Positions 42,095 to 59,541 of a stretch of DNA of 64,000 nt are shown here, piece by piece; the stretch's first letter is position 1, and each line of letters begins with the position of its first letter. Position numbers and translations under genes: made by a program. The stretch is from Bolinopsis microptera. Its lineage: Eukaryota; Ctenophora; Tentaculata; Lobata; Bolinopsidae. The notes under the pieces were generated by a model that ran no database searches, was not told the origin of the DNA, and worked only from the letters and a program-made list of their open reading frames with translations. Where the stretch lies: positions 1,304,001 through 1,368,000 of the forward strand of contig NC_087077.1 in assembly GCF_026151205.1 (NCBI RefSeq). Reading direction: 5' to 3'.

Positions 42095-42226
42095 ATGCGG
42101 CCATCCACAAAAGAAAAGCGGCCGCATTTCTTGTTGATTTAGGCCTCCAAAAAAATTTGGCGGCCAAATTCCAAAATTTTCCCGGAAAAATTCAGAATTT
42201 GGCCGCCAAATTTTTTTGGAGGCCTA
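42095..42226. repeat. Two perfect hairpins, including a 32-bp arm
   Basis: A small inverted repeat ATGCGGCC/GGCCGCAT lies at 42095-42102 and 42120-42127. It is followed by a perfect 32-bp inverted repeat, 42140-42171 with 42195-42226 (arm begins TAGGCCTCCAAAAAAATTTG), with a 23-nt loop. Confidence 0.92.
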
Positions 42227-42231
42227 ATTCA

Positions 42232-42925
42232 AAAATCTGTTCTCAAAATAAGGTGGAAATGCGATTTAGAGTCGATTCCGAAAATTTCATGCAAAAATTT
42301 TGAAAACTGATTGAGTTGTTACAATTTTAATGAGATCAATTCCGCAAATATCGCGAACCAAGATACGGGCAATTTAGTTCATTTTTTGTGGTTTTTTCGC
42401 CTTAGTATCCACATTTAAACAGATATAAAGCTATAACTTACAGAGAATATGTATTTTAGGCTTACCTTTCTTATAAAGTAAGTTTCATTCAAAAATATTG
42501 ATATTTGCCCAATTTAAGGGACGAAATCTACCAAATTTGGTGCGTATGCCCAAATATGGGCATATGGTTTTTGGCCCATAACTCAGTCATTTTTTGTCCA
42601 ATCTTGATGAAATTTCATATACGAGTTCAGGAGATCACTAGCTACAAGTAGAGCACCTAAAATCAGGGTTTTGGGCATGTTCAGGGTATTTGGCTAAATT
42701 GGGCCTAATTTGGACCAAATATGGGCGTGGCTGCCCCGCGGGCACCGTTTGGCGGTTAGGGTCCGGGACCCCCTCAAAAGTTCGGTCACTGGTCCTAGTT
42801 TGTTGGTCAACTGCTATCTCGAAATCAAGTTTCACAAAAAAATATCCATTGTCCCCCCCCTTAAACGGCCCAAATCTTCAACAATTACCTATCTAGCTAA
42901 AACACTCATAAATTTGTAACGTTAA
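42232..42925. other. Non-coding, related to 20650-20790
   Basis: Shares AGAGAATATGTATTTTAGG and the CTAGTTTGTTGGTCA segment with 20.65-20.79 kb, so it is another interspersed repeat. None of the missing EXO1 exons could be found here. Confidence 0.5.
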
Positions 42926-42930
42926 ATTAC

Positions 42931-44240
42931 CTGAACTTCTCGATAGACCATCCATCGAATCTAGGTTCATCAGTTGACTTGCCCAGGTCGGACAAGTCTA
43001 TCTCAATACCGTACCCTTGCTCGTCCATCTTAAAGAGGACTTTCTGAGGGTGATAATGTCAGATCTATTTATAGAACAGTGGATCTGTTTAGTTATGAAA
43101 AGTAGTAATAATTTATTAAAAAATTATGAAACATGGAGATGACAATAAGGGACATTCTCCAATTCTTACCTGGCAGCCGAACGGTAAAAGATCGGAATCC
43201 TCTGTAATAGCGAAATCAACCACCCCAGATTTAACGAGATAAGTAATCTGAGCATCGGCTTCATACGGTGCTACAATAACAGGGACATTCATCGCGCTAC
43301 ATTCCTTTATCACCTGAGAAACAGATATGAGAAACTAAACTAATAGATATGTTTTTTAGGACAATGAAAAAATCGAAAAGAAGTGGTATGGAGAATATAA
43401 AGATAAAATAACGTAATAAATAAACAGCAGATCAGGGTTTACCTCAACAACCATATCGTTGGTGATGCTGATAGCTTTTTGGAACATGTCCACTGCCCCA
43501 CTCTTGTTTCCCTCCGCAAGCAACTTCTTTCCTTTCTCTCTATTAGCCTGGGGATAAAAGTAGAATTTAGATGTTTTATTTTCCAAGTATTTTCCAAGTA
43601 TTTTCCAAGTATTTTCCAAGTATTTTCCAAGTATTTTCCAAGTAAAGGTTCTAAAACACGATACTAAGTATTAATTAAGCGAGTGAGGGTTGCAAATATT
43701 GAGGAAATATTTAAGATAACATTGTTTATAACTGACATGTCTGACATCCCTTCTCTTTTCATTGGTATTCTTCTTGGAGGGAGTGTTACAACCATCAAAC
43801 ACCATCACAGGGTAGACTTTGTTATAGAGCAGTAGTTTTATACGCTTCGCTATGTAGTTCACATACCTTGTCGTGGGTTGTCCTGAAAATAGAGTTGGAC
43901 TCAAACCTTGAACATGAACATTTGTAAAACTAGATGCTGTCAATACGATGAATCTAAAATTTTGCTGCATATACACAAACAACTTGTTTTGATGAAACGA
44001 TGAATTGTAACGATGAAGTGTAACGATGAAGTGTAACGATGAAGTGTAACGATGAAGTGTAACGATGAAGTGTAACGATGAAGTGTAACAAATACCTGTA
44101 GCAAGCTCGAAAGCACAGGAGAAAGCACCGCGATGTAACCAGCAGGAGGTATCAACAGCCACACACCGCCCAGCATACTGACCTACGTGCACTTTCTTGT
44201 GGATGTTGGAGAGGAATGGGAGCAGTCCTGTTATACCCAT
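42931..44240 (-). CDS. EXO1: Exonuclease 1, N-terminal nuclease exons 1-5 (3' end missing)
   Basis: FEN1/XPG-family 5'-3' exonuclease used in mismatch repair and end resection. Exons: 44240-44096, 43882-43746, 43547-43443, 43313-43170 and 43043-42931. All junctions are GT-AG and phases are consistent (1, 0, 0, 0, 2), giving ~214 residues in frame. Metal-binding residues are in place: D30 (VAVDTSCWL), D78 (VFDG), E147 and D149 (APYEADAQ), D168 and D170 (TEDSDLL). K85 and R92 of the helical gateway are also present. The helix-2-turn-helix and the long C-terminal regulatory region should follow, but no exon is seen downstream (below 42931), so the gene is cut short or continues elsewhere. Introns 1 and 2 hold 13-bp and 11-bp minisatellites. 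Confidence 0.88.
43576..43643. repeat. 11-bp minisatellite in EXO1 intron 2 (TTTTCCAAGTA x 6)
   Basis: Six near-perfect direct copies between exons 2 and 3. Confidence 0.95.
43999..44090. repeat. 13-bp minisatellite in EXO1 intron 1 (GATGAAGTGTAAC x 7)
   Basis: Seven copies; the first has GATGAATTGTAAC. It ends next to the 5' splice site of exon 1. Confidence 0.95.
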
Positions 44241-44660
44241 CCTATTGGAGAGATTATGGGCTAACAAGTCGTGTTGAAATGGATGGAAACCGAATAAATC
44301 ACCTATCTGATTCTGAGTTGTAACTTGATAGGATATTATACATTTATCAACGCGAAGAATGACAAAATTATGATAAACCGGTAAATTCGTAAGGTATGAA
44401 AATATAAGTAAGTAATAAATTAATTTCATCATAATTGCACATATATGGTTGATAAAAACAGGCAGATGTCATCGAACCTCTACAAATACTAAGGTTCAAG
44501 GGTCACAAGTTGCTGTAAGTATTCAAGAAACTATTTTCTGTGTCTAATTTAGTGTAATCATACAGTTTTGAGTTTTCACTACGTTTGCAGTAAATATTAT
44601 TTCCTCTCGGCCCGGTATTCAAAATTAGCTCATTCTGTGCTCTAAATACACATTAACTGC

Positions 44661-47697: not shown

Positions 47698-49608
47698 TTA
47701 AATATTTCGACTATCACTGCACTCGTCAGTACGCTTGTAAAACATAAAGCGAAATTCTTTAGAACATTTAGTGAGATCTTCAATGGTGGAAAGACAAGAA
47801 CTCCTAACAAATAGAGGATATTTGGGAAGATGAGGTTTAGAAGCATCAAAAAGAATAAAGCTATGAATTTTACTAAGCGAAACATCATAATTGTACTGAT
47901 ATCTTTTCCCGTTACCGTGTGATTGCAATGATATGCACGATGACTTATTTCCAGGTGAGAAATCAATATCATAGTACAATTTATCAAAACCTAATTGATA
48001 TTGCAATGTTTGGAGAAAATAGATCTTCCCTGGCATCGTGGCAACTCTCATGTCCCTTAATTGAAGCCCTGTGTCTTGGTCTGAATGTTCATGAGAACAA
48101 GTTAGGTCGGTTATATCAGGAAAAATTGTCAGGACACTTGGTAGCAGAATATTTTCTTTATATAGTTTAGGTATCTTCCGAAAACACACTGTGTCCAGGA
48201 GCAGCTTGATTTTGTCCTTCTGAAGCGGATTAGCTAACGCCCAAAGCATTATCAATTCAACCTGTCCACATCCTTCAAACCTTTCAGAATAGATACTGTG
48301 CTTACTGTACTTATCCATCCTTTTGAATTCATGTTTACAATCGAACTCTAAAAGATGATCCAGAATTGCCGAATTTGTTAAAATTGCTGATATCGTTTGA
48401 AATGATACCTCATGCCAAGGAATGTTGTACAATACTTCGTAGTTTCTACTGATACAGTGCTCCAAGAATAGCCATAACAATTTAGGACTAGGATAGACAT
48501 CATAAACTGGAAGAATTCTATCATAAAATTTGAAATAAGGGTTGTAGCTGCAAAGATAATTGACGAACACTTCTCGATCATTATCCACCATGAATTTCAA
48601 CTTATCAGTTATAACGGATGTTAGTTCTTCTTTTGAGATGACGATTGCGTTGTCTCCTTCTTTCCTCTCACCTCGCATCCACAGAGCTACTTTACGTAAA
48701 CATTCATCATTCTTAGGAGAAAAGGTTCTGACTACAGCTGAACTGCTAATCCATGATCTACGCGGTTTCTCCGTGATCATAAAACGGGTATTTCGTTCTG
48801 GAACCTGTTTCATTGAATTCCTTACCTTCTTAAGAACAGTTTTCCTCGAACAATCAGGGAGATTTGGTTGTTCCAAAACAAAATCAAATACTGCATCCGA
48901 TAAATAATCGCTTTCAATTAAGTGATATTGAATACTCTCCAAGATGGCACCAAAATTGTGACAGCGACTTGAATTCAATTTCAGCCAAGCTACAACTAAA
49001 TCAAACACATCTTTCTCGGGAATCTTCAGTTGATCTGATGATGTGATCGATTTTATTGTAAAGAAATCGAATTGTGAAATTACATCAGGCTCAGAAATTC
49101 TATCAAGCAGACTCAGAATCAAGAAGCTCACAACAGTATCAGACAAATCAGTGCACCAAATGGACTGAGCAAACTTCAGAATCTCCACAAATCTCTCGCA
49201 GCCTTCATCTTTCTTTATGTAATCTACAAAACTTGGTCTAACATAGTCCATTATCCACTGAATAGAATAACATTTGGCAAACTTGTAAACAATTTGCATG
49301 TTTTCCTCAACAACATCAAGCTTGCCAGTATAAAAACTGTTCACTATCTCAGAAACTAGTTGAAAGTATTCCGAGAATTCCGGTACAACTTCAATCTCAA
49401 TTAAATCAGACTGTTTGTTGTAAGCGACATCTCCAGAAGTTAAAAGGGAACTGTTAAGTTGTAGGGCTGTTTTGTGGACAGGAATACGTTCAGTGCCCAC
49501 TATAATGCAGCTGTCTGGGGGCTCAGTTGAAGGCAGAGACTGAAGATTATTCAAAACCTCCATCTGCCATTTTTTAAAAGACTCGCTTTTCTCAACTGCC
49601 TCCGCCAT
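47698..49608 (-). CDS. BTB/BACK-domain protein (636 aa)
   Basis: BTB/POZ protein, probably a Cullin-3 substrate adaptor or scaffold. I take ATG 49608 (MAEAVEKSES) as the start, since a 3' splice site (TTTATTCAG at 49621) lies just upstream, implying a 5'-UTR intron; the frame is open to 49635. The BTB fold covers about residues 25-135 (DSCIIVGTERIPVHKTALQL, VNSFYTGKLDV), with the usual HK after the first strands. A BACK domain follows at ~150-270 (FVEILKFAQSIWCTDLSDTV). The remaining ~360 residues show no Kelch repeats and I recognise no further domain. The coding part is a single exon. A partial copy of its 3' end lies at 50130-50560. Confidence 0.75.
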   Translation of the reverse strand: MAEAVEKSESFKKWQMEVLNNLQSLPSTEPPDSCIIVGTERIPVHKTALQLNSSLLTSGDVAYNKQSDLIEIEVVPEFSEYFQLVSEIVNSFYTGKLDVVEENMQIVYKFAKCYSIQWIMDYVRPSFVDYIKKDEGCERFVEILKFAQSIWCTDLSDTVVSFLILSLLDRISEPDVISQFDFFTIKSITSSDQLKIPEKDVFDLVVAWLKLNSSRCHNFGAILESIQYHLIESDYLSDAVFDFVLEQPNLPDCSRKTVLKKVRNSMKQVPERNTRFMITEKPRRSWISSSAVVRTFSPKNDECLRKVALWMRGERKEGDNAIVISKEELTSVITDKLKFMVDNDREVFVNYLCSYNPYFKFYDRILPVYDVYPSPKLLWLFLEHCISRNYEVLYNIPWHEVSFQTISAILTNSAILDHLLEFDCKHEFKRMDKYSKHSIYSERFEGCGQVELIMLWALANPLQKDKIKLLLDTVCFRKIPKLYKENILLPSVLTIFPDITDLTCSHEHSDQDTGLQLRDMRVATMPGKIYFLQTLQYQLGFDKLYYDIDFSPGNKSSCISLQSHGNGKRYQYNYDVSLSKIHSFILFDASKPHLPKYPLFVRSSCLSTIEDLTKCSKEFRFMFYKRTDECSDSRNI

Positions 49609-49635
49609 CACATGAATCCTGAATAAAGATGACAA

Positions 49636-51252: not shown

Positions 51253-54200
51253 CATCGTGGAAGTGTTTTTTTTTTTTTTTTAAGAGAGGCTGGGCCAAGA
51301 TAGCCCACGAGAGGATAGCATTGAGATGCTCTGCCTACCTCTGGGGTGTGGCAACCTTGGGGAAGGTTGCCGGTGAAATCAGAGTGATTGGTGGAGGATG
51401 GTGTAAGATGATATATGAGTCAAAATGATACGCTTAAATGCCAGCTGGGTTTGGAAAAGTAAAACGAGACGAGACAGCATATGAGCTAATACTTTAAGTC
51501 ACCCCGGTCTGATCCAGCTCTTCCGGCACAATTAAGCGTTTGGTGCGGTTTGCGAAATTGACAATTGTGGTGATGTGTTGGTTGTCGAATATGTCATTGA
51601 CAGAGAGGTAGTAGTCCTGGAAATATTGACCTCTAATTTGGGCAATAGCTGGACACTGTCCAAGGAAGTGTGAGACAGTTTCCTCTCCGTCGCCGCACAT
51701 AGGACAAGCACTGGTGTTTGATTTGCAAATGGTGTGAAGGTGTTTGTTTAAGCCGCAGTGACCCGTGATGAGGTGAACTGCAGTTCTGTAATCTTGTCTG
51801 TTTTTGCTGAGTGTAGTGTTGAGGTTTTTGATGATTTTGGCATGCTTGTGGCCGAGTGTCAGTTTGGTGTGTCTGGGACCGTCAGTTAACCAAGTTTCCT
51901 GATTCAGTCTGTTGACTTTGTTGTCGATTTGACGCTTGATGTAGGATTGTGGAATTGGACACTTCAAAGTGGATTCACTGGTTGTACCAAGCTTGGCCAG
52001 CTCATCTGCTTTTTCGTTCCCCCACAATCCGATGTGTGCTGCAATCCATCGTATCTCTAGCGTGTTGTTGGATCCGAGTGCATTAAGAGAGTCGTAACAG
52101 TCTCTTGTAGTTCTACTTCGCGTTGAAAGCGCAGAGATAGCTTGAATAGATGAGAGACTGTCAGACCATATGATGATATGTGTGTTGGTATAGGTAGAGA
52201 GATATTTGCAAGCTTCAATGATGGCGGTGAGCTCTGTTTGGTAAACAGTGCAATAATCAGGGAGCTTGAATGATCTTTCTTCAAGGGTGGTGTTATTGTT
52301 GTCAGTTGTGATGATATAGCCAGCCCCGCATCCTGAGTCTGTGAGTGACCCGTCAGTGTAGCAGGTGATCGTTTCACTGGTAATGTTGTCGATGGTGTTT
52401 TGAAGTGAATTTCTATATTCAGTGGTATCGGCTCCAGGAGTTGTGACGGTGAAGTGCCGTCCCAGCATCATGGTTGGTGTTGTTAGGTCTCTCGTTGCTC
52501 TAGGTGGGATAATGAGGTCTGCCATGAATTGTTTGTTGATAGTGGTATGATTTTTGATAGTTCCCTTCCTGAAAGCGATAGTTTCAAGAGTGAGGCTGCC
52601 ATAAGCTTGTAGCCTGGCCGCACCCTTTGCTGCTTCGCCTTGCAGGAACAGTATGATGTCAGAAGTGTCGGTGAGGTGATTCAATGCGATAAAAGGTGTG
52701 CTTGGCATGGCACCAGACATCATTCTGAGTGCCAATGCCTGAACACGTTTGAGTTTCTTCGCGTTATAGTCCGTTTGAGTGGCCCTGATCCATATACTAC
52801 AGCAGTAGGATAGGATTGGACGGATGACAGCCGTGTACATCCATTTGCATGTTTTTGGGCTCATACCCCATGTGGGGCCGACAGCTCTTCGACATTGCAT
52901 GAGGGATGCCGTGGCTTTTTTGGTGGTGTTGATGATATGTTCATTGAAGTTGAGTTTGCTGTCCAAGGTCACTCCTAGAAATTTAGCAGACTTGGAAAGA
53001 CCTATAATGTTGTTGCCAACTGTTATAGGTCTTAGAGTCCACTTACTATTCCAGGTAAACATGACTATCTGAGTTTTAAGGGCGCTAATAGATAGCTCTT
53101 TGGTTCTGCACCAATTTTCTATCGTTTTAATAGTTTTGCATGTTCGGTCCCAGATGATGTCTAAATCATCCCCTTCCGCTAGAGACAACAGATCATCCGC
53201 AAAGGCTTGCAGGTAACCCGGGATGTCTTTTGCGGTAAAGGAAAGGAGATCGTCGACTACCAGGTTCCAGAGAAAAGGAGAGAGAATGCCTCCTTGGGGG
53301 CAACCTCGCCTGATCCGTACCCTTCTCGACTTATCCTTATGATTTAGTGTGATGAATCGATTGGTTACCATGTTGATGATCCACTGTGCTGTAGCCAAGT
53401 CCACTTTCGTAGCCTTGACTGCTTCAGAGATAGCCTTGAACGAGACATTATCGAAGGCGCCCTCTATATCTAGAAAGACACCTAGGACATATCCTTTCTT
53501 GGCTATTCTGCGCTCAATGGTGTGAGTAACTTTATGAAGTGCCGCTTCTGTGGAGCAGCCCTTCTTAAAGCCGAATTGTCGTTTGTTGATATCATTAGCT
53601 ATGTTGAGGTCATGTTGCATATGCCATAAGATCACTTTCTCCTGCAACTTTAACATCACAGGCGAAAGAGTGATCGTTCGAAATGACTTAGCTTTGTTGT
53701 AGTCGGTTTTTCCAGGCTTAGGGAGAAAGATTCCAAGAGAGTCCCTCCACAAAGTTGGGATGTGTTGCGTTTCATGGTTTTTTGTCATAATGTTTTTTGT
53801 TATGTCTTTGATATGAGCCCAGGCTTTCTGGAATATGATAGGTTTTAGAGTGTCAGGTCCTGCAGCCTTCAAGGGATCGAAGGATAGGAGAGCCTTTTCG
53901 ATTCTTTCAGGGCTGTAGATTTTGTCTAGTAAGTCTGTGGAGATGGGTAAGGGGCAGAGAGGCGGAACTGGCGGATCAGTAACACTCTCCTTGAAGTGGG
54001 TTTGTGTCATGACCTCCAGTGTCTCCTCTGCGTTTTTGGTGAGTTCGCCATTTGGTTTATAAACGGCTTCAAGTTTGTTATTGGTGTCAGTACAGGTTTT
54101 CAGAATCTTGTTCATCCTTCCAGATTCCTTAACCGATTCTGTGTCTGCGCAGAATTTCCGCCACGCATTGCGCTGGGAGTTGGACAGGATCTTGTTGTAT

Positions 54201-54545
54201 TGCTTGTTGCTTTCTCTAAGAGCGAGCCACGAAGCATCAGTTTTGATTCGACGAGCTGTGATGAGTTTGCGTCTTATACCCCTCTGTGCTTCCTCAACTT
54301 CTCGAGTTAGCCAGGGTGGTTTTCTGACAGCGCTGGAGATGTAAGTAATGGGACATGCCTCCTCGAAGGCCGCTCGGAGAGCAGTATTAATGGTGTTAAC
54401 TTTGTGATCAATGTCGTCTGGTGTGTTAACGCAGGTGTTGTGGAGATCATTGTTGTTGTAAAGAATCTCGTCAAATTTCGCCCAGTCAGTGTTCTTGACT
54501 AGGCGTATTTGTCTTGGTTCTTTTTTGGGACCATCGTGGAAGTGT
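51253..54545. repeat. 14-bp target-site duplication flanking a LINE
   Basis: CATCGTGGAAGTGT occurs at 51253-51266 and at 54532-54545, directly flanking the LINE on both sides with no mismatch. Confidence 0.92.
51267..54531 (-). mobile_element. Young 5'-truncated LINE with RNase H (I/R1/LOA-like group)
   Basis: Minus-strand insertion: a 3' A-tail (T-run 51267-51281 on the plus strand), a ~210 bp 3' UTR, and a continuous ORF from the 5' junction to the stop at 51494-51496 (~1012 codons). RT motif A is FLDIEGAFDNV, B is GCPQGGILSPFLWN, C is AFADDLLSLAEG. RNase H residues are YTDGS, TELTAI, WSDSLSS and a GNEKAD motif. The C-terminal zinc knuckle is C-X2-C-X8-H-X4-C (CPMCGDGEETVSHFLGQC). The 5' part with the APE endonuclease is missing, so the copy is truncated. 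The apparent N-terminus MIVDLATHFHD belongs to the target site and the neighbouring snoRNA-like repeat, not to the element. No stops or frameshifts plus a perfect TSD mean recent insertion. Confidence 0.92.
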
Positions 54546-54669
54546 GTAGCAAGATCTACTATCAAGGAACAGAAACTGACAATCTGTTGCTAGCGAATAT
54601 CCTGCGTTTTCTATAGCAAACAATACTATGTGATAAACCAAAATAGTAAACCACAACTCTCAGTTGCAT
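54542..54669 (-). ncRNA. H/ACA box snoRNA candidate, copy A (RPB2 intron 10)
   Basis: Sense-strand copy of the 128-nt family. The H box reads AGAAAA and the ACA box is at 54545-54547, followed by CAC. This is the most diverged copy. Its 3'-hairpin lower stem is GCAGGAT with ATCTTGC instead of GUAGGGA with UCCUUGC: two base pairs are replaced by compensatory changes. Both pocket strands (UUCGC and GAUAGUAG) are unchanged. The LINE target-site duplication starts at the ACA tail, so the insertion may have disturbed processing. Confidence 0.7.
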
Positions 54670-54767
54670 TGAAGTTAGAATATTATAAACCTAAATTTCA
54701 CGTAAGATATCTAAATTTAAATAACAAAATTCAAATTAAGTAATCAAGCATATAGAAGTATAATAAC

Positions 54768-57700
54768 CTGAGGGCAGAAGAGCAATCCTTCTTGACGAAA
54801 CGTTTAGGAGCATCAGCCTCAGTCTCCTCCTCAGGTAGCAGACAAGTTTTACCGATTATAATATCATCTCCACTAACCTGAAGGGGGGAATCGGGTTAAT
54901 ACTTGCAGAATCCAGAACTACCAGAAAATTGGAGGGTGCGTGCAATTGGAGGGTGCGTGCAATTGGAGGGAACGGTCAAGGGAAACTGTAAAAACTCGAA
55001 GAAGCAAAGGAATTGACAAGGGAAATGTGAACTAAGAAGCAAGTATCATACCCTCATGCCAGGAGCGATGAGACCATCATCCTCTATTTTCTCATAGATA
55101 GCACGTCTCATTCCTTTACATGTGTTAGGGTCTGGTATCTCGAACTGTTCTTCTTGGTCTAACCCTTTCTTTGTCTCGCTGTCACGATATGATCTGCAGG
55201 GAGTTTGGTCAGGATACTAGTGTAATAACAACGTGTATATACCTTAAGATTGTGACTTTGATCTACTCAAATAATTAAAATCATAGCAAAGTATGTAGTA
55301 AGGACTACTATCAAGAAACAGAAACTGACAATCTGTTGCTAGCGAATTCCCTGCATTTAATCTAGCAAACAATACTATGTGATAAACCAAAATAGTAAAC
55401 CACAACTCTCAGTTGCATGACATGTGTTACATGTGTTACATGTAACATGCGTTACATGTGTTACGTGTGTCACATGTGTTACACCTGTGTTTAACGAACC
55501 TGTAGAAGACGGATCTGAAGTAGCCTCTCTCGATGGCGCTTTGATTGAGGATAACAGAATCCTCCTGGTTGTACCCAGTGTAACACATGATACCAACTAT
55601 CGTGTTAATACCAGCTGGTAACTCTCTGAAATAAGTAGGTTTAGACTATTTAATTAACTTTGACAATTGGTTAAGTTGAAGGATGAAAACAGTCGGGAAT
55701 GTGATCAAGAATAATCAAAAAGAACAAATCCTAGCGTTTGTTTATAATTCTAGTTCCATATTAGTGTAGAATATAAACCAGCTAACCTGAAGTGAAGATA
55801 TTCCATACTACGAGTAGTGGAGAGAGGTTTCTGAGGGTAGAATAGCACGTGAGCTAGGGTGTCCATACGAATGTGGAAGTTTGTGATGTACACTCCCATA
55901 GCTTGCTTACCTGAGGAATATAACGTTTTAGCATACGCGTTGGATAAATCTAGTGATTCATTTAAAAGGGCCGAGAAGTTGAACTCATTTATTAGAAAGA
56001 ATCCCACAAAGCACTAAGATAAACTCAATGTAACACAAAGATAAACTCAATGTAACACAAAGATAAACACTGACCCATAGCACTTTGGTAAGTGTTCCTG
56101 GGACTAGCGTTGTGATCAGGAAAGGGTATAATACTCGCGCACACTCCTAGAACCATACTAGGGTGGATCTCTGAGTGGGTGAAGGTTTTGGAGTACACTT
56201 TCTTTTCTTCTAGGTCCTCTGGTAACATCGCTATCATGCAGTTCTCTTCCTCGTGCGTGTCTGGAATATTTCACAATTTAGAATATTTAATTTCTAGAGA
56301 GAGCGAATATTATGAGATAAGGAGATACCTAACAATGTTGCAAGGACTACTATCAAGGAACAGAAACTGACAATCTGTTGCTAGCGAATTCCCTACATTT
56401 ACTATGGCAAACAATACTATGTGATAAACTAAAATAGTAAACCACAACTCTCAGTTGCATTACGTGTTCAAATAATTTGTTAAGGGTTTGTAAACTAAAC
56501 TTACCGATATACTCCACGATTCCGTTCTGCACCAAGTCCTGCCACCCGAAGTTTGTGTTGTCTCGGTTTTTGAGCTTGTCAATATGATGTTTCTTCAGAA
56601 TCAGTTTACCGTTGTCAACGATTAACAGTGGCCTTGAAATTCGACCAGCATCCGCCCAGATATTGATCTAGAGAAAATAGATTTTAGGATAATCTAGTCA
56701 GATGTATGTGGTTGAATAGAACTGAAATTTCAACATTTTGTAAATCGAAATAGAAGCTAGCAGAAGTAATAGAATTTTCCACCCTGATTGAATAACGTAA
56801 CACTAGGTACAACCCACGACTAACCTCTTTATTACGGATGTCCCTGACTATGGAAACTTCACTAGCAACGATATCCATCTCTCTCCTCAGTTTCCTAAGA
56901 GTGAACATCAGTTGATCTGGTATCCTGTGAATACCCACCCAGCAGCCATTTACAAATATCTTGGTAGCATTTGCAATGGACGCCGCTGTGATCTCCTCTA
57001 GATTCTCCGTTGCCCACTCCTCCAAGAACTCCAAAATGAAGGTAGGATCAGACCCAACAGACACGTAAGCCATGAGAGCTAAGTTCTTGACGAGACCCAC
57101 AGCACCTCCCTCGGGAGTCTCTGCAGGACATATCATGCCCCAGTGAGTGTTGTGAAGTTGCCGAGGTCGGGCTATCTTACCGTCTCGTCCTATGGGGGAG
57201 TTAACCCGCCGGAGATGAGAGAGGGAGGAGGCGTACGTGAGTCTGTTGAGCACTTGGGACACACCAGCTCGAGCTTGGTGAGCTTTCTTCTGGTCACCCC
57301 AGTTACCCGTGGCTAAGGAGTATCTCATGCCGTTTGTAATTGTGTCTGGTCTAACAGCGACTGTCAAGTTGAAATCCTTGCCTTGATCCACAAACTTCTG
57401 GCAGTACAATCTGATCTCTTTCTGAAGTTTCTTGAACAAAGTTCTGAAGAGGAAGTTAAGAAGGGGTCCAGCTAGATCGAGACGTTTGTTACCGTAATGA
57501 TCTCTGTCATCCAGCTCACGACGACCTAACGCTCCGAGCAAGAGTCTGTGAACCATATAACCCAGGAAATAAGCTTTCTTCGTCTCGAAGAAATCACCGA
57601 TACCCACGTGGGGCAACATTTCCTTTTTCAAGATGTCCTTGGCATATTTGATACGTTTGTTTTTGGGAACTCCCGCTCTCGCTCCTCTGACTCCGATGAA

Positions 57701-59541
57701 GTTCAGAGCAACTTCTTGCTCCTGAACAACAAAAGCTTCGTCAAGTGACGGTTTCAGCATTTCCATAAGCTCCTGATCGTCGAAATCATAAATGATATGC
57801 TCCAAAATGTCTCGATCTGACACAAAACCGAGGGCACGGAAGATGATCATGATAGGGATCTCCTGTTTGACATACGGGAGAGTAGCCACTATTCTCTGTC
57901 CAATACCAGTCTTACGACTGCTCTGTCCACCCCTGGCCAACATGGAAACCCACATGGTACTCACTGGCCGGGAAGAGTTCTCAATCATGGACCTAATCTC
58001 AGCAACATACGCATACTTAGAATCCTTCTTCTGGAAAATGAACACAGTGTTTGTTGTCATCTTCTCCTGAGCGATCAGTACTTTCTCTGATCCATTGATT
58101 ACGAAATAACCGCCCGGATCTAGCGGACACTCGTTAACCTCGTTAAGATCACGATCTGATAGTTTGTTGAGGAGACAGCAGACTGATCGTAACATGACCG
58201 GGAGACGACCGATAAATGTTCGCTCGTGCATGTACTCCTCAGGTTCGCAGTCTTCTTTTTCTACTCGCTTTACTATGTCTGAGGAAAAAGGTATTGATTA
58301 GTGAACCGTGTTGAACAGAAAAGTTAAACAGTCATTTTTATCATATAATGGGTGAAATCAAGCGACGCATGAAGAGATTTGCATGCAAATCAACGCAATG
58401 AAATCAAAAAATGTAGCAAGGACTACTATCAAGGAACAGAAACTGACAATCTGTTGCTAGCGAATTCCCTACATTTTCTATAGCAAACAATACTATGTGA
58501 TAAACTAAAATAGTAAACCACAACTCTCAGTTGCATTACGTGTTCAGATTGATTTAGCTATAAAAATATTCATGGATTAAAATTATGTTTTTTCAAACAT
58601 ACTAACCAGCGAACAGCATAGAAGAATAAGTAAGATTGCGAAGTCTAGCCTCGTTAGGCATTAGAGGAGACCCGGAGCCGTCCTTCTCGTAATGAGTGGG
58701 TTTCTGGAGGTAGATCTGCTCAAACTTGATAAAGTATCTAGTGGGAATGTCCTCTTCTGTTGAGGTGTACTGTTGCTCAGCTACTAGCTCTATTGGAGGA
58801 GACTTCTCTACTATGGACTGCACTTTTTTCTGAGGAAATGGGCGTCTTGATTAACCTATTGAAGATTGATAGATCTGTCAAAAAATGGAGGGGACACGTC
58901 GCAAGTAATTAAACGAAGATAATTATTTCATCATAAAAGCCGAAATAGTTGCATATTGACATTGTGTTGACAGATCAAAGGAAACAAATCAAAGGAAACA
59001 AATCGACCTACACTTATATAATTTATGATACTAACTTAAATAATAACTTAATCTCACCAGGATGAACTGATCGAAAGACTCGAGCTGCTGAATGACAAGA
59101 CCCTTCTCAGCGAAGTAAGAGGATATGATGTGCCAGCAGGCCTCCTGCCACATCTCTGTAACCTCGTTACCGTCGTCATCTTGGTCCTGGATGGATGCTG
59201 TGAAACTTGAGATTATTGTACCAATTCATTTAATTTAAAGATCGTATCAAGCATAATATCTTTTCAACAATGTCCAATGTTTATAAAAGAACCGATGGAC
59301 TATAACCGAAGGATCTTGACTATGATGTAGGCGAATGATAAAAATTTAAATATGTAGCAAGGACTACTATCAAGAAACAGAAACTGACAATCTGTTGCTA
59401 GCGAATTCCCTGCATTTTCTATAGCAAACAATACTATGTGATAAACCAAATTAGTAAACCACAACTCTCAGTTGCATTAAGCGTTCAATTAATTTTATGG
59501 ATATTGATTTTTACCTGATAGTATTGCTCGTAATCGTCCAT
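54768..59541 (-). CDS. POLR2B: RNA polymerase II second-largest subunit, exons 1-10 (C-terminus missing)
   Basis: RPB2, catalytic-core subunit of RNA polymerase II. Exons: 59541-59515, 59186-59058, 58829-58607, 58278-56825, 56667-56505, 56260-56075, 55910-55787, 55625-55500, 55193-55052 and 54877-54768. All introns are GT-AG and phases are consistent, giving ~894 codons without a stop. Hallmarks: [20 protein letters not shown] (lobe/protrusion), [36 protein letters not shown] (fork) and GYNQEDSV near the active site, then [11 protein letters not shown]. The last ~280 residues (hybrid-binding, wall and clamp regions, including GDKFASRHGQKG) should follow in further exons, but the next DNA is a LINE, then repeats and the BTB locus. 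So the gene is truncated, rearranged or misassembled here. Introns 1, 3, 5, 8 and 10 each hold an H/ACA-like RNA. Confidence 0.93.
54933..54970. repeat. 17-bp direct repeat in RPB2 intron 9
   Basis: About 2.2 copies of AATTGGAGGGTGCGTGC, next to exon 10. Confidence 0.85.
55292..55418 (-). ncRNA. H/ACA box snoRNA candidate, copy B (RPB2 intron 8)
   Basis: 127 nt, sense to RPB2. H box AGATTA still fits ANANNA although the surrounding bases differ from the other copies. The ACA box is at 55295-55297, followed by TAC. Pocket strands UUCGC and GAUAGUAG are conserved. One lower-stem pair (C with A) is mismatched, so this copy may fold less well. It starts 81 nt from the 5' splice site of intron 8. 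Confidence 0.7.
55420..55490. repeat. ACATGTGTT-type microsatellite in RPB2 intron 8
   Basis: About seven imperfect 9-bp units (ACATGTGTT and variants) between snoRNA-like copy B and exon 8. Confidence 0.8.
56333..56460 (-). ncRNA. H/ACA box snoRNA candidate, copy C (RPB2 intron 5)
   Basis: 128 nt, sense to RPB2. H box ATAGTA. The ACA box is at 56336-56338 followed by TTG; the base before ACA is A instead of U and would extend the lower stem by one pair. Guide strands are unchanged. It lies 44 nt from the 5' splice site and ~75 nt from the 3' splice site. Confidence 0.72.
58409..58536 (-). ncRNA. H/ACA box snoRNA candidate, copy D (RPB2 intron 3), reference copy
   Basis: Sense order: 5' hairpin, H box AGAAAA, 3' hairpin, ACA (58412-58414) with 3-nt tail. 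The 5' hairpin has an upper helix UGUGGU with AUCACA, a UU/UU internal loop and ACUA with UAGU; its base lies 16 nt before the H box. The 3' hairpin has a lower stem GUAGGGA with UCCUUGC (7 pairs, two G-U wobbles possible only on this strand) and an upper helix AACAGA with UCUGUU. The pocket strands are UUCGC (58460-58464) and GAUAGUAG (58423-58430). The upper pocket edge is 16 nt from ACA, as the 14-16 nt rule demands. The pocket is complementary to 5'-CUACUAUC, UA, GCGAA-3', a conserved eukaryotic large-subunit rRNA segment (recalled, not searched). Confidence 0.78.
59350..59477 (-). ncRNA. H/ACA box snoRNA candidate, copy E (RPB2 intron 1)
   Basis: 128 nt, sense to RPB2. H box AGAAAA; ACA box at 59353-59355, tail TAT. 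A U-G pair of copy D's lower stem is C-G here, keeping the stem. In the 5' hairpin ACUA pairs with UGGU, retaining a U-G wobble valid only on this strand. Guide strands are unchanged. It begins 38 nt from the 5' splice site of intron 1. Confidence 0.74.

Follow-up and report, generated by a model that had tools for sequence, protein, structure and literature searches.

RPB2 and Neighboring Features in the Window

The window, meaning the whole stretch of 64,000 nucleotides that was analysed, carries on its minus strand exons 1-10 of the gene for the RNA polymerase II subunit RPB2 (Table 1). When joined, the exons are free of stop codons, with GT at all 10 donors and AG at all 9 acceptors. The product was 74% identical to human RPB2 over 886 residues. 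Moreover, the large exon matched the Pol II RPB2 of solved structures among the PDB chains with 878 bits, which ruled out a Pol I or Pol III paralogue. Judged from their letters, the Pol I and Pol III genes are presumably those on C9 and C5. Searches of contig 6 past exon 10 with two Pfam models and a human C-terminal query did not find the 3′ exons, which make up the 3′ third of RPB2. Their absence may be due to a misassembly at the LINE in intron 10 or to a real break.

This LINE is separate from the snoRNA copy in the same intron, and its low end in Table 1 is the end of its ORF. Past the ACA of copy 5, the LINE homology sets in after 11 nt, at position 54533. The family had at least 41 matches in the genome, and among the matches listed, 26 other places were at least 98% identical over 530-634 nt. 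The LINE machinery thus seems, from these sequences, to be active in this genome. Beyond the LINE, the same strand carries a BTB-BACK gene (47698-49635) and then an ORF with an XPG_N domain (43671-44468), which we take to be EXO1-like. In addition, an inverted repeat lies at 42135-42236, nearly perfect and about 100 nt in length. It matched several miRNA families below threshold on both strands and looks like a small palindromic element.

Table 1. Features of the RPB2 locus, in positions of the window.
Feature	Position	Strand	Description
Host gene, Pol II RPB2, exons 1-10	54768..59541	-	894 open codons
Copy 1	59350..59478	-	H/ACA snoRNA, intron 1; RF00091 36.5 bits
Copy 1, boxes	59417-59422 (H box); 59353-59355 (ACA)	-	H box ATAGAA
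Copy 1, 3′ pocket left arm	59399..59405	-	UUCGCUA; identical in 5/5 copies
Copy 1, 3′ pocket right arm	59364..59369	-	UAGUAG; identical in 5/5 copies
Copy 2	58409..58537	-	Intron 3; H box ATAGAA; ACA 58412-58414; RF00091 30.9 bits
Copy 3	56333..56461	-	Intron 5; H box ATAGTA; ACA 56336-56338; RF00091 31.0 bits
Copy 4	55291..55419	-	Intron 8; H box AGATTA; ACA 55294-55296; RF00091 29.1 bits
Copy 5	54542..54670	-	Intron 10; H box ATAGAA; ACA 54545-54547; RF00091 35.0 bits
Young LINE	51494..54533	-	ORF encoding RT and RNase H; in RPB2 intron 10, close behind the 3′ end of copy 5

Five Copies of One Block in the RPB2 Introns

A preliminary description of this DNA had placed near-identical blocks in RPB2 introns 1, 3, 5, 8, and 10, on the sense strand of the gene. 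All of them were located, giving five copies of 129 nt, one in each of these introns, all on the sense strand of RPB2 (the minus strand of the window). The introns had also been called alternate, which is not strictly the case for this series. Pairwise, the copies differed at 3-10 of 125 aligned columns (columns 2-126). A covariance model built from the five copies gave its own members 161-168 bits and the rest of the window at most 13.7 bits, which ruled out a chance repeat. Furthermore, a DNA search of the genome (264.65 Mb, 232 contigs) yielded five candidates and five matches, each of them one of the RPB2 intron copies, although the lack of a match elsewhere in such a search is not proof of absence. 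At 55420-55483, a tandem repeat with a unit of 9 nt (7.3 copies, ACATGTGTT) abuts the 5′ end of copy 4.

The lengths of the introns were then compared. After subtraction of the 129 nt, introns 1, 3, 5, and 8 measured 199, 199, 115, and 177 nt, respectively, and the copy-free introns 2, 4, 6, 7, and 9 measured 228, 157, 164, 161, and 174 nt. Since the copy-bearing introns without their 129 nt resemble the copy-free ones, the snoRNA appears to have been added to pre-existing introns. The distance from the ACA to the 3′ splice site was 75-166 nt in introns 1, 3, 5, and 8. The length of intron 10 was not measurable because of the LINE homology close to the ACA and because the searches of the contig gave no RPB2 exon beyond exon 10.

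H/ACA Architecture of the Copies

In box H/ACA snoRNAs, the ACA lies 3 nt from the mature 3′ end, and the guide pocket pairs on both sides of a U, 14-16 nt upstream of the box. An ACA was present in all five copies. Read in one common register, hinge columns 57-62 were ATAGAA in three copies, ATAGTA in one, and AGATTA in the other, so that ANANNA fits every copy. The ANANNA hinge of the preliminary description was thereby retained, but not its register, since the AGAAAA on which it had been read sits 2 nt further on, where the pattern fits just three of the five copies.

A structure of 26 pairs with the order hairpin, hinge, hairpin, and tail was drawn from these sequences. It paired 99.2% of 130 cells over the five copies, compared with 33-52% when the same structure was slid. 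The folding energy of single copies was unremarkable (z −0.06 to −1.70). The minimum-energy folds contained the 5′ upper stem in all copies and lacked the canonical 3′ hairpin in copies 4 and 5. By hairpins, ANANNA hinge, and ACA, the identification of the blocks as box H/ACA snoRNA genes holds. The H/ACA architecture that had been proposed for them is also supported by homology to E2, by guide-target pairing with a 14-nt spacing, and by two compensatory pairs, which are described below.

Kinship With SNORA62/SNORA6 (E2)

At gathering thresholds, Rfam gave no match in the window. The preliminary description had suggested a covariance search as a check, and RF00091 (SNORA62/SNORA6) did match all five copies over the full model, but all of them below the cut-off, with 29.1-36.5 bits against a gathering score of 80. 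We therefore call the RNA an E2-like H/ACA snoRNA and not a formal member of RF00091. The E-values of these matches were 0.00023-0.012 in a search of 5.2 kb and 0.0028-0.15 in the scan of the whole window. In the latter scan, the palindrome at 42135-42236 scored similarly or better to miRNA families. Since an unrelated palindrome scores as well, sub-threshold Rfam matches alone are weak evidence.

When copy 1 was searched alone, the five families that matched it in Rfam at E ≤ 5 were all of the H/ACA type, with SNORA62 as the best (1e-5). The alignment of copy 1 to RF00091 was best in the hinge and the 3′ half, where it included UUCGCUA, UUGAUAGUA, and the ACA end. In a genome-wide search with RF00091 at E ≤ 10, the two hits listed were copies 1 and 5 (E 0.003 and 0.006), among the 38 of 8608 first-look candidates that were scored, and copies 2-4 (29-31 bits) were absent from that listing.

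Guide Pockets and the Predicted 28S Target

The first base of the right arm of the 3′ pocket lies 14 nt before the ACA. This pocket can form 7 + 6 = 13 Watson-Crick base pairs with 28S CUACUA[UC]UAGCGAA around the U, and the predicted modified U stands within the 28S word CUACUA[U]CUAGCGAA. The 28S word CTATCTACTATCNAGCGAAACC had one exact match in the genome, located on contig 5 within a stretch of rDNA, and the pairing is with this stretch. When 3′ pockets were shuffled and compared with six stretches, 4 of 200 reached the same pairing score. The 13-bp pairing alone is therefore modest, and its weight comes from the same pocket being common to E2. For the 5′ pocket, no target above chance was found among the stretches searched, since 96 of 200 shuffles were equally good. 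The rDNA stretches L006 and L009 (C5:2293600-2313500) scored 345 and 892 bits for LSU and 448 and 1606 bits for SSU. This rDNA looks degenerate, and the intact rDNA may have been collapsed in the assembly.

According to a passage in PMC2850357, SNORA62 targets 28S U3830 and U3832. Judging from complementarity and homology, the 3′ pocket of the RPB2 intron copies probably guides pseudouridine formation at the E2-type 28S site. The five guides would most likely be redundant for this one 28S pseudouridine.

Variation Between the Copies

The alignment contained 15 variable columns, none of which was among the 34 columns that make up the two pockets (hypergeometric test, 0.006, with pocket columns that were picked after the alignment was viewed). 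For the 15-column 3′ pocket considered alone, the value was 0.13. Elsewhere, the 10-column hinge held 5 variable columns, and the 3′ lower stem, with 14 columns, held 6. In this stem, copy 5 carried two compensatory changes (G-C to A-U and A-U to U-A), copies 2 and 3 changed C-G to U-G, and copy 4 had one pair broken by a C-A mismatch.

A control of 500 trials, in which the 3′ letters were shuffled, was used for the covariation, on a structure drawn from these same sequences. Two double changes were reached in 81 trials, the covariation score in 50, and the further pair types in 255. Strong covariation statistics are out of reach with just five close copies.

Origin of the Copies

Identity between the copies dropped within about 10 nt on either side. 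The preliminary description had conservation halting at the ACA in all five copies. The rapid fall-off beyond it was confirmed, but the border is not exact, since a T also follows the ACA in four of the five. Just upstream, copies 1-3 had 7-9 of 10 nt in common, and farther 10-nt bins held 0-7 identities. No flanking direct repeat longer than 5 nt was found within 30 nt of either side of any of the five copies, and the 30 nt that follow each of copies 1-4 held no A-run longer than 3 nt. The run of 6 A after copy 5 is located inside the LINE. Inverted repeats of at least 8 nt joining both ends were found in none of the five copies, and the arms that were found were internal or overlapping.

Both retroposition and intron-to-intron copying had been suggested earlier, and the latter is the natural reading of these flanks. 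In retroposition, processed snoRNA would have been copied back into the introns by the LINE machinery. The copied unit is indeed close to the snoRNA in length, the genome contains an apparently young LINE family with one member next to copy 5, and human H/ACA copies are argued, in passages of PMC8178906, to come mostly from retrotransposition. However, this route meets neither an A-tail nor a target-site duplication, although old marks could have decayed; all copies lie in one gene and in one orientation with none found elsewhere; and the nucleotides that copies 1-3 share upstream of the unit point to copying at the DNA level. We consider retroposition unlikely. A MITE or another short mobile element resident in the RPB2 introns would also give five near-identical units of about 130 nt with differing flanks. 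The genome-wide search, in contrast, found no dispersed copies: its five matches in the 265 Mb all fall within a single gene, on the sense strand. These units lack inverted arms of at least 8 nt that join their two ends and lack flanking repeats over 5 nt, and they do have H/ACA boxes, homology to E2, and a guide pocket. A mobile element was rejected on its single locus, single orientation, and lack of terminal repeats, and we hold it to be extremely improbable. DNA-level copying within RPB2 is favored.

Discussion

We are highly confident that the five genes encode one divergent, E2-related H/ACA snoRNA, which would be processed from introns, guide modification of 28S, and have been duplicated into pre-existing introns of RPB2, with divergence outside the pockets. 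From established knowledge of H/ACA RNPs, each copy would be released from the spliced RPB2 intron by exonuclease trimming, and the H/ACA proteins, dyskerin and its partners, would protect the released RNA. The 3′ pocket would then direct the conversion of one 28S uridine (CUACUA[U]C-UAGCGAA) into pseudouridine. Expression of the copies is presumed. The copies would have been made by duplication into introns that RPB2 already possessed, and would then have diverged outside the guide pockets, with selection keeping the structure.

Instead of acting as guide RNAs, the blocks might act in cis on the splicing or expression of RPB2. All copies are inside one Pol II subunit gene, and cis functions of snoRNAs are discussed in part of PMC11028025, but neither the conserved E2 pocket nor the 14-nt spacing nor the ACA and H boxes would be expected from a cis role, which we judge very improbable. 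A different possibility, compatible with the snoRNA reading, is that one or a few copies are functional and the set includes decaying pseudocopies, with copy 4 as the foremost candidate. In copy 4 the hinge is altered and the lower stem has the C-A mismatch, yet the pockets and the ACA are preserved and the H box still fits its pattern, so we are rather doubtful of such decay. Going further than five redundant E2-like guides, one may suppose that RPB2 is, in this lineage, a dedicated multi-copy host, with all copies of the family residing there, and that the five-fold amplification in cis ties the dose of one rRNA modification to RPB2 transcription. This we put forward only as a tentative idea, with the balance against it.

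With this finding, the E2-type guide and its predicted 28S target are extended, in a different host gene, to a eukaryote that shares 74% identity with human in RPB2. Part of PMC3511168 describes guides that keep their target yet move between broadly expressed hosts, and an E2-like guide in RPB2 fits this pattern. Five copies with readable variants would be a natural test of copy number against modification level, and they would also inform how snoRNAs get copied between introns.

Among the papers listed, none treated RPB2 as a snoRNA host when judged by title or start of abstract, and none dealt with ctenophore snoRNAs. For Drosophila H/ACA isoforms, the passages found held nothing bearing on copies, and those of PMC7033134 were uninformative. 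The preliminary description knew of no account of such an arrangement, but cis-duplication of snoRNAs is in print (PMC2653536, PMC3412847, PMC8178906, and PMC1821038, each in the passages available). Passages in the first three describe paralogous snoRNAs that occupy separate introns of a single host gene. Since cis-duplication is already known, the RPB2 host and the copy number look like new details of a familiar phenomenon. Another cis-duplicated snoRNA in this genome is perhaps represented by two sub-threshold matches to U14 (SNORD14), 5 kb apart on one strand (C3:15816148-15816224 and C3:15821295-15821371).

Among known systems, SNORA62/SNORA6 is like the RPB2 intron copies in its two hairpins, its 3′ pocket (UUCGCUA / UUGAUAGUA), its ACA tail, and, for the copies as predicted, its 28S target. 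The RF00091 model has 154 positions, whereas the copies have 129 nt. Moreover, the host of SNORA62 is RPSA (intron 4 in sheep, according to a passage in PMC2850357), while here the host is RPB2, with five copies in one gene. In arrangement, the copies resemble the cis-duplicated snoRNA paralogs of chicken (PMC2653536, in part) and an H/ACA snoRNA of sponge in two neighboring RPL13A introns, 5 and 6 (PMC3412847, in a passage that also mentions nematodes and platypus). In these cases, too, near-identical snoRNAs with conserved guides are spread over separate introns of the same protein gene. The sponge RPL13A has two copies, compared with five here in RPB2. Finally, the mfl gene of Drosophila carries the four copies DmSnR60 a-d in introns 6-9, as described in a passage of PMC1821038. 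Here, one snoRNA likewise occupies several introns of one gene, one copy per intron, but these are four box C/D snoRNAs for 2′-O-methylation, whereas the RPB2 introns hold five copies of the H/ACA type.
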